IMG/VR virus record: IMGVR_UViG_3300037493_000622
Coordinates: 1-24,721 of that record
From: a virus
Strand: one strand, 5' to 3'
Length of the DNA stretch: 24,721 nt
Shown here: positions 1-23,191 of the stretch, in pieces
Numbering within the stretch: position 1 is the first letter of the stretch
Layout: each line of letters begins with the position of its first letter
Made by a program: the position numbers and the translations under genes
The notes under the pieces: generated by a model
Told to the model about the DNA's origin: nothing
Database searches by the model: none
Seen by the model: only the letters and a program-made list of their open reading frames with translations

Positions 1-141
1 TTAAAGACCGACGAAGGCGCAGTTCTAACAAACGGCAACTACACTTTGACCGAACAAGAGTTCGCAGCGTGGGGATTAGATAACGCATGGGTAACTGAAT
101 GCGTAGCAAACGCAATAGGAGTAACAATTATAACTTTCTAA
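1..141 (+). CDS. Unknown phage protein, C-terminal end only
   Basis: An open frame runs in from the left edge and stops with TAA at 139-141, giving 46 residues and no start in the window. The fragment contains TLTEQEFAAWGLDNAWV and ends in a hydrophobic VTIITF. It sits 1 base before the next small gene and upstream of a tail completion protein, so a neck or tail role is plausible from position alone. I do not recognise the family. Only the stop codon is certain. Confidence 0.6.
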   Translation, partial: LKTDEGAVLTNGNYTLTEQEFAAWGLDNAWVTECVANAIGVTIITF

Positions 142-16665: not shown

Positions 16666-16853
16666 ATAAGAAAGAAACAACATTAAAATGGTTTTATGAG
16701 AATTTAAAGAATTACAAATCTTTAGATTTGAATGATAAAATTATACAAGAGTTATTTGCTCAAGGCTTAGAAAATGAAAAGCAGTACAATCAAAAATTAG
16801 CAGATGATGCCTTTAGATTAGGTTGGGAATCGCATAAAACATTTACAGCATGA
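16662..16853 (+). CDS. Small hypothetical protein, 63 aa
   Basis: The 63 residues are helical and charged: TTLKWFYENLKNYKSLDLND followed by KQYNQKLADDAFRLGWES. The end, with a Phe-x-x-Gly-Trp-Glu arrangement, is seen in many small phage proteins of unknown function. It begins and ends in ATGA overlaps, which supports translation. No function can be assigned. Confidence 0.5.
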   Translation: MNKKETTLKWFYENLKNYKSLDLNDKIIQELFAQGLENEKQYNQKLADDAFRLGWESHKTFTA

Positions 16854-17335
16854 GCCAATTAGAAAAAAAGATAGCAGATTTAATCCTGCTCATACCATCA
16901 GATCAGCAGCACTTTGCACGTAAGAGAATTGATAACATCATTAGAGTAGTTAGCGAAAGCCAAATAGCAGAGCTTAATTGGCAGTCTATTAATGGAGAGG
17001 TAGAATCAATTAATGAGAAGCTTACAAATGACATGATGAAGATTATCTGCACGCTTACCCAGGTGGATTGGAATCAGATGAAAGGCAAATGTAGAAAGCG
17101 TGAGCTAAATGATGTTAGGCAGATTGCAATGTGGATTATTCGCAGAGGAACATCTATGAGCTTTTACAATGTAGGTAAAGTATTCAACAGGCATCATGCA
17201 ACTGTACTGCACGCTGTTAAGAATGTAGAAGCTTTAGTCGAAACTGATTATAAGTACAGGGCTGATGTAGAGCAAATCTTAAACCATATTGACAACGAAG
17301 ATTTAAACCGAGCATTTAATCGTTTAAGTAAATAA
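16850..17335 (+). CDS. Protein with DnaA domain IV (DNA-binding), without the AAA+ ATPase
   Basis: The C-terminal half (about 62-146) matches domain IV of the replication initiator DnaA, which reads the DnaA box. The stretch DVRQIAMWIIRR (88-99) corresponds to the DnaA helix with R-Q-x-A-M-Y-L. FYNVGKVFNRHHATVLHAVK (105-124) matches the signature F-x-x-R-D-H-(S/T)-T-V-x-H-A, with His in place of the usual Asp. The N-terminal 60 residues show no Walker motifs, so it cannot work alone as an ATP-driven initiator. It may bind DnaA boxes on the phage genome, such as the pair at 22301-22321, or compete with host DnaA. Starts in an ATGA overlap. Confidence 0.72.
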   Translation: MSQLEKKIADLILLIPSDQQHFARKRIDNIIRVVSESQIAELNWQSINGEVESINEKLTNDMMKIICTLTQVDWNQMKGKCRKRELNDVRQIAMWIIRRGTSMSFYNVGKVFNRHHATVLHAVKNVEALVETDYKYRADVEQILNHIDNEDLNRAFNRLSK

Positions 17336-19740: not shown

Positions 19741-20593
19741 AAATGTCATAATCACTACTTGCAAGAGTGGAGATAAATTCTTAATGATGAGTGATATCCA
19801 TTGGGATAATCCCCATTGCGATAGAAAGCTTCTTAAAGCTCACTTAGATAAGTGCTTAGCAGAAAATATCAGCTTTGCTGTTAATGGAGATTTATTCTGC
19901 TGCATGCAGGGCAAGTATGATCCGCGTAGAAGTAAGCAGGATATTCTACCGGAGCACAACGTAGCAAATTATTTAGATGCTTTAGTGAACACCGCTATAG
20001 ATTGGTGGAAGCCATACGCTCACTTACTTGTATTTGTGGGATATGGCAATCACGAGACTGCTATAATAAAGAACTGTGAGACTGACTTAATAGAGCGCTT
20101 TGTTAGTGGCCTTAACCGAGAAGCTGGCACTAATGTATTAGTAGGTGGATATGGTGGGTGGTGGATTCATAGAGTAATGAAAAACGAGAAGAGCGCGATG
20201 GTGTTTAAAACAAAATACTATCACGGATCAGGAGGAGGAGGAGTAGTTACGAAGGGAGTAATTCAAAATAACCGTATGGGTGTAATGATAGATGGAGCTG
20301 ATTGCATTTGGGCAGGCCACGTGCATGAACTTTACCATCACTCTGATATGGTCGAAGAGTTATGCTATGCTGCTAATGGAGGCTATAGAATCAATATGAG
20401 ATACGTGCATCACATTCGTACAGCATCTTACAAAGAAGAGTATGACGAGGGCTTTATGGGCTTTCACGTAGAGCGCATGAGACCTCCTAAACCTTTGGGC
20501 GCTTATCTATTGCAGTTAGATTTGGAAAGAATAACTAAACCCGTTGACACTACATTAGTAATACCTACTTTTGTGCAATGGAGAGACAAATAG
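19715..20593 (+). CDS. Calcineurin-like metallophosphoesterase
   Basis: The 292-residue protein holds the full set of metallophosphoesterase motifs in order: SDIHWD (Asp27, His29), NGDLF (Asp59), GNHE (111-114), YYHGSG (His170) and GHVHE (201-205). These bind two metal ions and cut phosphoester bonds. Substrate is not predictable; related phage enzymes may act on nucleotides, RNA or DNA ends. It overlaps the large terminase gene by 16 bases, a pairing I associate with Bacteroidota phages, so a role in processing DNA ends during packaging is possible. The start at 19715 is an ATG inside the preceding gene. Confidence 0.85.
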   Translation: MITSYREGRNVIITTCKSGDKFLMMSDIHWDNPHCDRKLLKAHLDKCLAENISFAVNGDLFCCMQGKYDPRRSKQDILPEHNVANYLDALVNTAIDWWKPYAHLLVFVGYGNHETAIIKNCETDLIERFVSGLNREAGTNVLVGGYGGWWIHRVMKNEKSAMVFKTKYYHGSGGGGVVTKGVIQNNRMGVMIDGADCIWAGHVHELYHHSDMVEELCYAANGGYRINMRYVHHIRTASYKEEYDEGFMGFHVERMRPPKPLGAYLLQLDLERITKPVDTTLVIPTFVQWRDK

Positions 20594-21897
20594 ACTACAA
20601 CTTTAAGCCTCTTTCAAGGCAATCTGAAGCTCTTAAATTCTTATCAGTAGATTCAAATGTAGAGACTATACTTTACGGAGGAGCTGCAGGCGGTGGCAAG
20701 ACTATGTTAGGCTGCATGTGGCAGATTCTTAGGCGCTTAAAATACCCAGGTACACGCTCACTTATTGGCCGAGCTAAGTTAGATACTCTTAAAAAGACTA
20801 CCATGAATACATTTTTTCAAGTAGCTAATGATATTGGTCTAAGAGCTGGAGAGGATTTCAGCTATAATCAGCAGAGTCATATTATTAAGTTTAGTAACGG
20901 CTCAGAGATAATCTTAGCCGATTTATTCCTGTATCCATCAGATCCTCACTTTCAAGACTTAGGAGGCCTTGAGCTCACTGATGTATTTTTAGATGAAGCT
21001 ACTGAAATAAGTGAGAAGGCTTATAGTGTAGTGTGCTCACGTATCCGGTACAAGCTTAATGAGTTTGGACTTAAGCCAAAGATTCTACTCACGTGCAATC
21101 CTTCTAAGGGATGGATCTATAACCAATTCTATCTACCTTATAAGAATCAGAATCTGCCTAAGCATCTTGCATTCGTGCAAGCTTTGCCAGGTGATAATAT
21201 ACACTTACCGGATGCTTATGTTACAAGCTTAAGCAGATTGCCCGAAGCAGATAGAAAAAGACTCTTAGAGGGAGATTGGGAATTTGATAATAGCAGTGAT
21301 AGACTTTATCTTTATGATGAGCTTATGCGCTGCTTTAGGGAGCCAATGAATGTAGGAGAGGGATACATCACAGCAGACATTGCCCGACTTGGAAAGGATA
21401 GAACAGTGCTTTGTGTATGGAAAGGATTAAGCTGCATTGATATAGTAGTGCTAAGGCAAAAGCGACAAGATGAAGTTAAGGCAGAGATTCAGCGCTTAAT
21501 GAATCAGTATAGTGTTAGGCTATCTAATGTGCTGGCAGATGCTGATGGGGTGGGCGGTGGCTTGGTAGACAGTTTGCGCTGCAGAGAATTTATGAATGGC
21601 AGTAAAGCTGTAAGAGGCACTCAGTACATGAATCTAAAAGCAGACTGTTACTTTAGACTTGGCGAGCTAATAGATAAAAATGAGATAACGCTACCTATTA
21701 AATGGCAAGAAGATATCTGCAAAGAGCTTGAGTTAATTAGGAGAGTAGATCCTGATAAAGAAGGGAAGCTAAGAGTAACATCAAAAGATACTATCAGCCA
21801 GCGCACCGGAGGAATCTCTCCCGATATAGCAGATGCTATCATGATGAGAGCTTACTTTGAGCTGAATAGGAACTACACTAAGTACGCATTCATCTAA
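20578..21897 (+). CDS. terL: Terminase large subunit
   Basis: The 439-residue protein is the DNA-packaging motor. Its ATPase half has Walker A at 34-42 (GGAAGGGKT), Walker B with catalytic Glu at 135-140 (DVFLDE) and a coupling-type TCNPSKGW. The nuclease half has ITADIARLGKDRT with Asp267, LADADGVGGG with Asp321 and Asp323, and SPDIADAIMM with Asp416 and Asp419, forming an RNase H-like metal site. All expected catalytic groups are present. It overlaps the phosphoesterase gene by 16 bases. No small terminase gene is obvious nearby. The unit ends in the repeat-rich gap that follows. Confidence 0.93.
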   Translation: MERQIDYNFKPLSRQSEALKFLSVDSNVETILYGGAAGGGKTMLGCMWQILRRLKYPGTRSLIGRAKLDTLKKTTMNTFFQVANDIGLRAGEDFSYNQQSHIIKFSNGSEIILADLFLYPSDPHFQDLGGLELTDVFLDEATEISEKAYSVVCSRIRYKLNEFGLKPKILLTCNPSKGWIYNQFYLPYKNQNLPKHLAFVQALPGDNIHLPDAYVTSLSRLPEADRKRLLEGDWEFDNSSDRLYLYDELMRCFREPMNVGEGYITADIARLGKDRTVLCVWKGLSCIDIVVLRQKRQDEVKAEIQRLMNQYSVRLSNVLADADGVGGGLVDSLRCREFMNGSKAVRGTQYMNLKADCYFRLGELIDKNEITLPIKWQEDICKELELIRRVDPDKEGKLRVTSKDTISQRTGGISPDIADAIMMRAYFELNRNYTKYAFI

Positions 21898-21909
21898 GAT
21901 AACTCCATT

Positions 21910-21948
21910 AAAGTGTTATTTAGCACACTTTATCGTACTTAAAAGTGT
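21910..21948 (+). terminator. Weak terminator with three interchangeable arms
   Basis: AAAGTGT at 21910-21916 can pair with ACACTTT at 21925-21931, which in turn can pair with a second AAAGTGT at 21942-21948. The first hairpin lies 13 bases after the terminase stop. The T run is short, so termination strength is uncertain. Two alternative hairpins sharing one arm are possible. Confidence 0.45.
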
Positions 21949-22004
21949 ATTATAAGGGATATTGCATACTATAATATGGATTAGATGCTATTAATAACAT
22001 CTTT

Positions 22005-22031
22005 GTCGCAAGTATAGTAGACTTTTGCGAC
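22005..22031. repeat. Inverted repeat GTCGCAA / TTGCGAC
   Basis: GTCGCAA at 22005-22011 and TTGCGAC at 22025-22031 are perfect inverted copies separated by 13 bases. The spacer contains the first TATAGTAGA element of the direct-repeat series. It could be a protein-binding site or a hairpin. Confidence 0.5.
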
Positions 22032-22086
22032 AGCTATAGTAGAAAATAATCTACAGAATGAGGCTTATAGTGGAAAACAATCTACA
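22013..22086. repeat. Three iteron-like TATAGTRGA direct repeats
   Basis: TATAGTAGA occurs at 22013-22021 and 22035-22043, and TATAGTGGA at 22066-22074. The second and third copies extend to 21 bases (22035-22055 and 22066-22086) with two differences. Start-to-start distances are 22 and 31 bases, close to two and three helical turns. The 21-base copies also contain GTAGA or GTGGA pairing with TCTAC, forming small hairpins. Confidence 0.6.
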
Positions 22087-22102
22087 AAACTATACCCGAT
22101 AA

Positions 22103-22136
22103 CGTATAATATCCGCTAATATCTGCAAATTATACG
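22103..22136. repeat. Inverted repeat CGTATAAT / ATTATACG around a tandem 10-mer
   Basis: Perfect 8-base arms lie at 22103-22110 and 22129-22136. Overlapping the left arm and filling most of the spacer are two adjacent copies of TAATATCYGC (22107-22116 and 22117-22126, one mismatch). One 10-base unit is about one helical turn. Confidence 0.55.
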
Positions 22137-22198
22137 CAAAAGGGTACATATTACAGTAAGATTATCAGGTTTAAACTGACGTAATTGATATAAACAAA

Positions 22199-22224
22199 AT
22201 AGCCCTACACGTTTGTAGAGCTAT
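22199..22224 (+). repeat. Stable hairpin in the intergenic region
   Basis: ATAGC and CTAC at 22199-22203 and 22205-22208 pair with GTAG and GCTAT at 22215-22218 and 22220-22224, with one C/A mismatch and a six-base loop. No T run follows, so it is not a typical terminator. A second, smaller hairpin AGCCT/AGGCT lies at 22248-22265. Confidence 0.5.
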
Positions 22225-22298
22225 CCTGTAATCAAATAATCAATATAAGCCTAAACCAAAAGGCTGAAATGGATAGCCAAATATATCACACTTAATAC

Positions 22299-22322
22299 TA
22301 TGTGCATAAGTATGTGAATAAG
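22299..22322 (-). promoter_or_regulatory. Two perfect DnaA boxes in a tandem 12-base repeat
   Basis: TGTGCATAA at 22301-22309 and TGTGAATAA at 22313-22321 are the reverse complements of TTATGCACA and TTATTCACA. Both fit the DnaA box TTATNCACA with no mismatch. They are part of a 12-base unit TATGTGNATAAG repeated exactly twice, differing only at the free base. They lie upstream of the nuclease/sigma operon and may serve origin binding or repression. Confidence 0.65.
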
Positions 22323-22325
22323 ATG

Positions 22326-22357
22326 TTGAAACGAAGTAAGTTAATAGTCTAATTTTG
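22326..22357 (+). promoter_or_regulatory. Candidate promoter for the nuclease-sigma operon
   Basis: TAATTTTG at 22350-22357 fits the Bacteroidota -7 box TAnnTTTG exactly. A TTG at 22326-22328 lies 21 bases upstream, slightly more than the usual spacing. Transcription would begin at or next to the ATG at 22363, implying a leaderless message. The DnaA boxes end 4 bases before the TTG, so a bound protein would affect polymerase. Confidence 0.45.
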
Positions 22358-22362
22358 AGCAC

Positions 22363-22710
22363 ATGAAAAATGAAGAGGCGCTAATTCAAGAGGCTGTTAT
22401 TAACTATGTTAATGCTCAGTATCCTGGCACTCTTTACTGTGCGAGTGCTGGAGGTGTTCGTACTTCCATGAGACAGGCTGTAATGATGAAGCGCACAGGA
22501 TATGTTAAAGGCTTCCCTGATATCTTTATCTATGAGCCTCGTGATGCCTTCCATGGTTTAGCTATTGAGATGAAACGTGAGAAGGGAGGAGTAGTAAGCT
22601 TACATCAGAAAGAGTGGCACAAGAAGCTAACTGAGAGGGGATATTTCTGCGCTATTTGTAAAGGCTTTGATGAGGCTAAAGTAATTATTGATGAGTACTT
22701 ACACCTCTGA
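22363..22710 (+). CDS. VRR-NUC domain nuclease
   Basis: The 115-residue protein is a minimal VRR-NUC endonuclease of the PD-(D/E)xK superfamily. It shows the family elements in order: EALIQEAVINYVN with Gln9, ASAGGVRTS at 27-35, GYVKGFPDIFIY with Asp53, LAIEMKREKGGV with Glu69 and Lys71, and SLHQKEWHKKL with Gln82. Asp53, Glu69 and Lys71 are the likely catalytic residues. Phage members may resolve branched DNA or aid repair and replication; the substrate is not predictable. It heads a four-gene operon with a sigma-like factor, overlapping it by 20 bases. Confidence 0.85.
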   Translation: MKNEEALIQEAVINYVNAQYPGTLYCASAGGVRTSMRQAVMMKRTGYVKGFPDIFIYEPRDAFHGLAIEMKREKGGVVSLHQKEWHKKLTERGYFCAICKGFDEAKVIIDEYLHL

Positions 22711-23191
22711 AATAAATAGATGCTATGCCGAATGGCGCAGAGTAGCAGCAACTGTTACAAGGTTAGATTTAGCTGATGAGCTTTTACATGACACGCTACT
22801 TAAGATATTAGAAAGTGATAAAGATAAATTACAGGATATTCATAACCGAGGTAAGCTAAACAATTACGTTAGCAACGCTATTAGACTATCTGCAAGGTGC
22901 AGTAACAGCTCATTTAACTACACTCGTTTAAGATTCGAAAAGATACGCAACGATCTAAAAGATGATATCATTGATGATGTGAATAAAAGCGTAGGAATGA
23001 GACTTGAGAATGAGCAGTTAGATATATTTATTAGTAGGCTGCCATACTTTGAGCGTGAGCTATTCTTTCTTTATGCCTTAGACGATTTCAGCTACCAAGA
23101 GTTAGCTAAAGAAACAGGCATACCTTTGAACTATCTTTACCGTACAATTAAGAAAGCTAAAGTAACACTTAGAAATTCGTTACAAATATGA
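22691..23191 (+). CDS. Sigma-70-family RNA polymerase sigma factor (small, region 2 + region 4)
   Basis: From ATG 22691 the product is 166 residues. Residues about 24-66 resemble sigma region 2 (RLDLADELLHDTLLKILESD, then NNYVSNAIRLSA, like the core-binding and melting helices). Residues about 108-164 resemble region 4: LPYFERELFFLYALDDFSYQ followed by ELAKETGIPLNYLYRTIKKA, a clear helix-turn-helix. The two-domain layout without region 1 or 3 is that of ECF-type factors. It probably directs host RNA polymerase to phage promoters. A TTG at 22688 adds one residue and is less likely. It overlaps both neighbours and is co-transcribed with the nuclease. Confidence 0.75.
   Translation: MSTYTSEINRCYAEWRRVAATVTRLDLADELLHDTLLKILESDKDKLQDIHNRGKLNNYVSNAIRLSARCSNSSFNYTRLRFEKIRNDLKDDIIDDVNKSVGMRLENEQLDIFISRLPYFERELFFLYALDDFSYQELAKETGIPLNYLYRTIKKAKVTLRNSLQI

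Follow-up and report, generated by a model that had tools for sequence, protein, structure and literature searches.

Phage pseudo-ToxI RNA repeats neutralise ToxIN. AbiE is an abortive-infection system of the type IV toxin–antitoxin class, in which AbiEi represses its own promoter (PMC3985639, PMC7319586); in S. agalactiae, AbiEi binds inverted TGTTGC..GCAACA repeats in the abiE promoter (PMC3985639). The -7 box motif of Bacteroidota sigma-A is TAnnTTTG (PMC9723704). T4-type phages exchange PeSLs, mobile promoter-stem-loop cassettes (Arbiol 2010 and Comeau 2014, cited in PMC4503421).

Here, we analysed a linear IMG/VR phage record, IMGVR_UViG_3300037493_000622, over its whole length of 24,721 nt (hereafter, the window). 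By its sequence, the phage is of the Bacteroidota type, as indicated by a terL 46% identical to that of Flavobacterium phage 11b and by a TAnnTTTG box before the gene behind the gap that follows terL. This gap, which extends to a VRR-NUC gene and spans 21898-22362, contains a mosaic of dyads and hairpins of ~300 nt, in which we distinguished the modules B-C-D-E-F-G-P (Table 1).

Table 1. Positions of the array modules, core elements, and genes in the window
Feature	Position	Strand	Description
DnaA domain IV protein	16850..17335	+	Bac_DnaA_C, E 5e-18
terL	20578..21897	+	Terminase_3; left flank of the array
Module B1	21910..21931	.	Palindrome AAAGTGT-TATTTAGC-ACACTTT; compensatory variation in relatives
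Module B2	21965..21978	.	Small dyad CATACTATAATATG; relatives have CACA..TGTG and CATA..TATG forms
Module C	21983..22002	.	Near-perfect palindrome AGATGCTATTAATAACATCT
Module D	22003..22032	.	Dyad TTGTCGCAA-N12-TTTGCGACA; holds the first TATAGTAGA; -7 box broken
Module E	22035..22055	+	TATAGTAGAAAATAATCTACA
Module F	22066..22086	+	TATAGTGGAAAACAATCTACA; 31 nt after E
Module G	22093..22146	.	Nested inverted repeat TACCC..(CGTATAAT-N18-ATTATACG)..GGGTA around tandem TAATATCYGC
Module P	22164..22179	.	Small dyad ATCAGG..TTTAAAC..TGA; closes the array on its 3' side
Hairpin H	22199..22224	-	U-rich minus-strand tail; core element, conserved in relatives with and without an array
DnaA-box pair	22301..22321	-	12-bp direct repeats TATGTGCATAAG/TATGTGAATAAG; core, not array
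Sigma-A -7 box	22350..22357	+	TAATTTTG; 5 nt before the VRR-NUC ATG
VRR-NUC	22363..22710	+	VRR-NUC/Holliday-junction-resolvase-like gene; right flank

Results

Repeats and the adjoining core

The repeats named in the original prediction are present in the window. Three TATAGTRGA copies were located at 22013, 22035, and 22066 on the + strand, with spacings of 22 and 31 nt, and these are the only copies in the window. Their number exceeds chance: in 300 dinucleotide shuffles, two or more copies within 62 nt were never seen. Two of the copies extend beyond 9 bases, as E and F run for 21-24 nt and are 88% identical. The exact inverted repeat CGTATAAT/ATTATACG (22103-22110 and 22129-22136) and the 10-base tandem TAATATCCGC/TAATATCTGC (22107-22126) were likewise found. 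The description of the three copies as iterons was only partly upheld: E and F, 31 nt apart, form a conserved unit, but the first copy belongs to a different element. This copy of TATAGTAGA is the spacer of dyad D and the other two are the 5' parts of E and F, indicating that the set of three is in part a coincidence. The DnaA boxes, which had been counted as part of the same dense array, exist as exact TTATNCACA copies at 22301 and 22313, but they belong to a separate conserved core, ~165 nt past the inverted repeat and ~120 nt past the last array module. A third exact box lies at 22978.

The terL-to-VRR gaps of the relatives consist of two layers, a variable array of palindromic modules followed by the conserved core. 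In all relatives with a complete gap, the core comprises hairpin H, a sigma-A promoter with almost no leader, and 12-bp repeats that hold either a single DnaA box or two. The near absence of a leader in the VRR-NUC mRNA is predicted from the position of TAATTTTG, only 5 nt before the ATG; this promoter box is conserved in 73 relatives. In the relatives with a complete gap, hairpin H is always interrupted by a single mismatch, which reads C-A on the + strand and G-U on the minus strand; the hairpin resembles a minus-strand terminator, yet all genes lie on the + strand. A close pair of exact DnaA boxes before VRR-NUC was observed in 8 of the 22 family genomes, the window included, as the sole such pair in each genome; the second box reads TGTTAACAA in the remaining ones. 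Compared by eye, the type of the second box and the type of the DnaA domain IV protein (DnaA-IV) showed no clean relation. This protein is 50-91% identical in 23 of 23 family genomes tested, and it also occurs in several unrelated array-bearing phages.

Spacing, divergence, and folding

The analysis supports sites of a protein-binding type at helical spacing. When spacings of 17-47 nt were allowed, all but one of 37 cases across unrelated phages (36 of 37) showed an E-F distance of exactly 31 nt (30 nt in the remaining one), and the 18-nt spacer occurred in 40 different sequence versions. For D, we scanned IMG/VR with the pattern TTGTCGCAA-N{2..32}-TTTGCGACA; among the matches listed, the spacer measured 12 nt in 61 of ~80 loci, and every other length was represented by 1-4 loci. 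A second dyad specificity, D2 (TTGTCACAA..TTTGTGACA), showed spacers of 11-13 nt in 72 of 81 loci (43 at 12, 16 at 11, and 13 at 13 nt). The arms of D, with spacers of 12-14 nt, covary as Watson-Crick pairs (G-C, A-T, C-G), almost without wobble.

The location of the array after terL, the compensatory changes in its hairpins, and folding that is better than that of shuffled sequences (mean z ~ -3) would be compatible with a structured noncoding RNA or with hairpins that act on the late transcript by protecting or terminating it. However, the z values are equal on both strands, E and F pair poorly (~57% at two positions), and the wobble bias favours opposite strands in different modules. TAnnTTTG was found on the + strand in 0 of 44 arrays, and the array matched no Rfam family. 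The orientation relative to the neighbouring genes is also free: the array is inverted in three cousins (L086, L089, and L105; terL 76%), in which it lies reversed within the same gap, and it occupies divergent and convergent sites elsewhere. The exact spacings, the nearly wobble-free covariation of D, the poor pairing of E/F, and the strand-equal folding form a pattern that fits DNA-protein sites better than RNA, and we consider an RNA improbable. The RNA role proposed in the original prediction is weakened. A packaging role, suggested as well, is unlikely because phages whose terminases are unrelated carry the modules too, at sites far from terL.

Module D and host AbiEi-type genes

The exact D dyad was detected in 5 of 395 Bacteroidota genomes, at one site each; the reversed-pattern control gave 1. 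Four of the five sites lie directly upstream of the same gene family, which was assigned as DUF6088 (PF19570, E 7e-71) and, by PADLOC, as AbiEi (E 3e-68). In L448, an AbiEii toxin gene is next after the DUF6088/AbiEi gene. The TTGTCACAA variant dyad in L463 likewise precedes DUF6088, and a TTGTCCCAA variant dyad in L459 precedes a DUF6577/AbiEi_4-like gene; the dyads in L457 and L465 did not fit the antitoxin-gene pattern. At all five DUF6088 loci (the four exact ones and L463), TAnnTTTG lies in the gene-facing arm, with the ATG ~15-20 nt onward. In half-sites and spacing, module D matches the dyad of the host DUF6088/AbiEi promoter-operator, and this identity is well supported. Its TGTCGC..GCGACA half-sites are also similar to the TGTTGC..GCAACA repeats bound by S. 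agalactiae AbiEi. Among the modules sought, a host counterpart is known for D alone: none was found for the E-F pair in 395 Bacteroidota genomes, with up to 3 mismatches allowed, or for module C in 61.

In the window, TAnnTTTG is absent from D on both strands, the matching strand reading TATACTTG instead of the host TATATTTG (host ACTATATTTGCGACA vs phage ACTATACTTGCGACA). Furthermore, an HMM search for the DUF6088 gene gave no hits in 45 phage genomes, 70 D loci, or 80 TTGTCACAA (D2) loci, and PADLOC detected no AbiEi among the 20 window proteins scanned. With its -7 box broken on both strands and no DUF6088 gene in the phages checked, the window D looks like a promoter-dead copy of the host regulator's operator. 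Elsewhere, TAnnTTTG is still found at 17 of 39 distinct phage D sites, several of them directly before genes, and some could therefore be live promoters. Such sites would suit a working operator, at which host AbiEi represses a phage promoter or reports on it and so acts as a host-sensing switch. In the window, the broken box and the distance to the nearest promoter (>300 nt from D) argue against a switch, which we regard as the least probable of the alternatives weighed here.

D was also seen inside protein-coding genes (L353, L357, L360, L364, L393; L376/L384; L375; L382), one of which, shared between loci, encodes a lipoprotein-like product of ~162 aa, with variable spacers. The TTGTCGCAA and TTGTCACAA dyads are both present in L340, ~0.9 kb apart, and the family arrays L015, L067, L069, and L081 also combine the two specificities.

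Gain and loss among close relatives

Close relatives were retrieved through their terminase (n=80; terL 87-99% identical), and 74 of them could be scored for the array. It was missing in 20 of the 74. Such absence is an outcome that the original prediction itself had named as refuting a replication origin. On the terL tree, gain and loss of the array required at least 11 flips, every one forced by well supported branches, and individual modules flipped 8-16 times. The available sequence of the array-free relatives was scanned whole, and no array was found at any other place. One array-free relative, G011, is circularly closed with a 127-nt end overlap; G020 and G004, which carry arrays, are also circularly closed, with differing permutations. 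DnaA-IV is retained in array-free relatives, and an essential origin is rejected on the basis of the array-free complete relatives.

A less demanding proposal is an iteron-type origin, or an accessory origin or primosome site, bound by the phage DnaA-IV or by host DnaA. Read on the other strand, the E/F motif gives TTTTCCAC-A/T, which is similar to the relaxed DnaA box TTWTNCACA; the E-F spacing equals three helical turns, and two exact DnaA boxes stand in the adjoining core. The window encodes DnaA-IV, as do 17 of 32 array-bearing records, compared with 0 of 7 array-free control records over 14 kb, and the array lies <3 kb from the GC-skew minimum in the 82-123-kb phages and one 60-kb phage (three lineages). 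Against this proposal stand the array-free relatives described above, the 61-67-kb lineage, in which 11-14 kb separate the array from the skew minimum, and the 120-kb lineage, in which no DnaA-IV was found. The GC-skew analysis, which the original prediction had also called for, was uninformative inside the window and inconsistent across array-bearing phages; skew largely tracks the gene strand, and a distinct contribution of replication did not emerge from it. Such an origin appears unlikely.

In L011, L013, L014, L017, and L018, the terL stop codon is supplied by array sequence, implying that array deletions extend into the end of terL. G013 (61,462 bp) has about twice the family genome length and a terL identical to that of G011, and may be a concatemer or chimera. 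A search for a trans-acting phage gene that tracks the presence of the array gave no convincing candidate (best of 48 families, p=0.036).

The same modules in unrelated phages

Pattern scans of IMG/VR recovered these modules from eight protein-sharing groups of phages, 30-123 kb in size, with the order B - C - D/D2 - [I, J, M] - E,F - [K] - CR - TG - [N] kept across phages. Each genome carries one array, confined to a single locus in 25 of 28 records; dispersed REP/REPIN elements, for which many copies per genome are expected, were excluded on this basis. The array is inserted at tandem, divergent, or convergent gene junctions, and in G047 (terL 60%) it resides at another place. The free orientation, the free neighbours, and the constant order together imply that the internal order matters and that orientation and neighbours do not. 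Modules are exchangeable and singly dispensable, and the array occurs in either orientation. Isolated phages and plasmids gave no array match, and the 25 E/F matches in 85k bacterial genomes were all attributed to chance by their chromosomal context.

Several arrays have nuclease genes beside them, VRR-NUC in the window being one. A GIY-YIG nuclease-HTH fusion-like gene lies upstream of the array in L085, L090, L190, and L194, and an HNH/endonuclease VII-like gene downstream in L149. A parS-like palindrome, GTTTCACGTGGAAC, is found near the array in L128 and L147 (G060). In G024, G026, G028, G035, and G037 (114-123 kb), the array coincides with the GC-skew minimum, in most of them at a junction of divergent genes, and >88% of the larger genes are directed away from it.

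The gains and losses on the terL tree and the boundaries inside terL stop codons could also be produced by a non-functional mosaic, whose similarity is maintained by frequent recombination among co-infecting phages. Yet the E-F and D spacings are exact despite diverged spacers in unrelated phages, there is a single array per genome, and the array is much less diverged than either flank (4-6% between phages that differ by 16-59% at the third positions of terL and VRR). We consider a mosaic of this kind quite unlikely.

Discussion

Our preferred interpretation, to which we give about an even chance, is an exchangeable array of regulator-binding sites, in which D is a promoter-dead copy of a host AbiE-type operator and probably a decoy. 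The accessory origin, the RNA, and the recombination mosaic are weaker rivals and rank below it. Under the decoy interpretation, a host AbiEi-type protein would bind module D, and B, C, G, P, the CR/H-type modules of relatives, and the E-F pair would be recognised by further DNA-binding proteins of the host or the phage. The array would titrate or reposition these regulators during infection, and the gain and loss of modules would follow the host repertoire of defence and toxin-antitoxin systems. We infer the decoy function, the binding of AbiEi at D, and the operator nature of the other modules from the patterns described above. Several points weigh against this interpretation. Only D has a host counterpart, some phage D sites elsewhere could be live promoters, and the array is frequently absent. 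Moreover, if an antitoxin that represses its own promoter were titrated away, the toxin operon would be expected to become derepressed, which leaves no obvious gain for the phage.

To our knowledge, no phage array of host operator copies has been described. As a tentative generalization, Bacteroidota phages may widely carry exchangeable operator-decoy arrays that are reshuffled as host defences change. Such arrays would consist of promoter-dead copies of the control sites of host toxin-antitoxin and defence regulators (AbiEi in the case of D) and would interfere at the DNA level. If this is true, phages could interfere with abortive-infection and toxin-antitoxin control by DNA only, in a manner that can be read from noncoding DNA, and the array would be a record of the regulators carried by uncultured hosts. 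A decoy would represent a new class of counter-regulation. Even without a decoy, the analysis provides a testable, single-copy, order-conserved set of noncoding modules and a predicted DUF6088/AbiEi operator motif.

Comparison with known systems

The abiE promoter-operator shares with phage D the inverted TGTYGC..GCRACA half-sites, and the five Bacteroidota dyads stand before DUF6088/AbiEi, over a -7 box. In contrast, phage D lacks the antitoxin gene, has a broken -7 box, and is set among other modules, and its inner half-site gap is 12 nt, not 27 nt. Iteron origins of plasmids and phages resemble the array in their direct repeats at helical spacing, AT-richness, and nearby DnaA boxes; the array differs in being dispensable in complete relatives and in having two direct repeats only, its elements being mostly dyads. 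PeSL cassettes are similar in being noncoding stem-loops exchanged between phages, whereas the array has no promoter, occurs once per genome, and holds several modules in fixed order in unrelated phages. With no + strand promoter motif in the 44 arrays and one array per genome, a T4-type PeSL cassette was rejected. Pseudo-ToxI is alike in that a phage bears a regulatory element copied from a host toxin-antitoxin system of the abortive-infection kind; it copies an RNA antitoxin, whereas the phage array copies a putative DNA operator.
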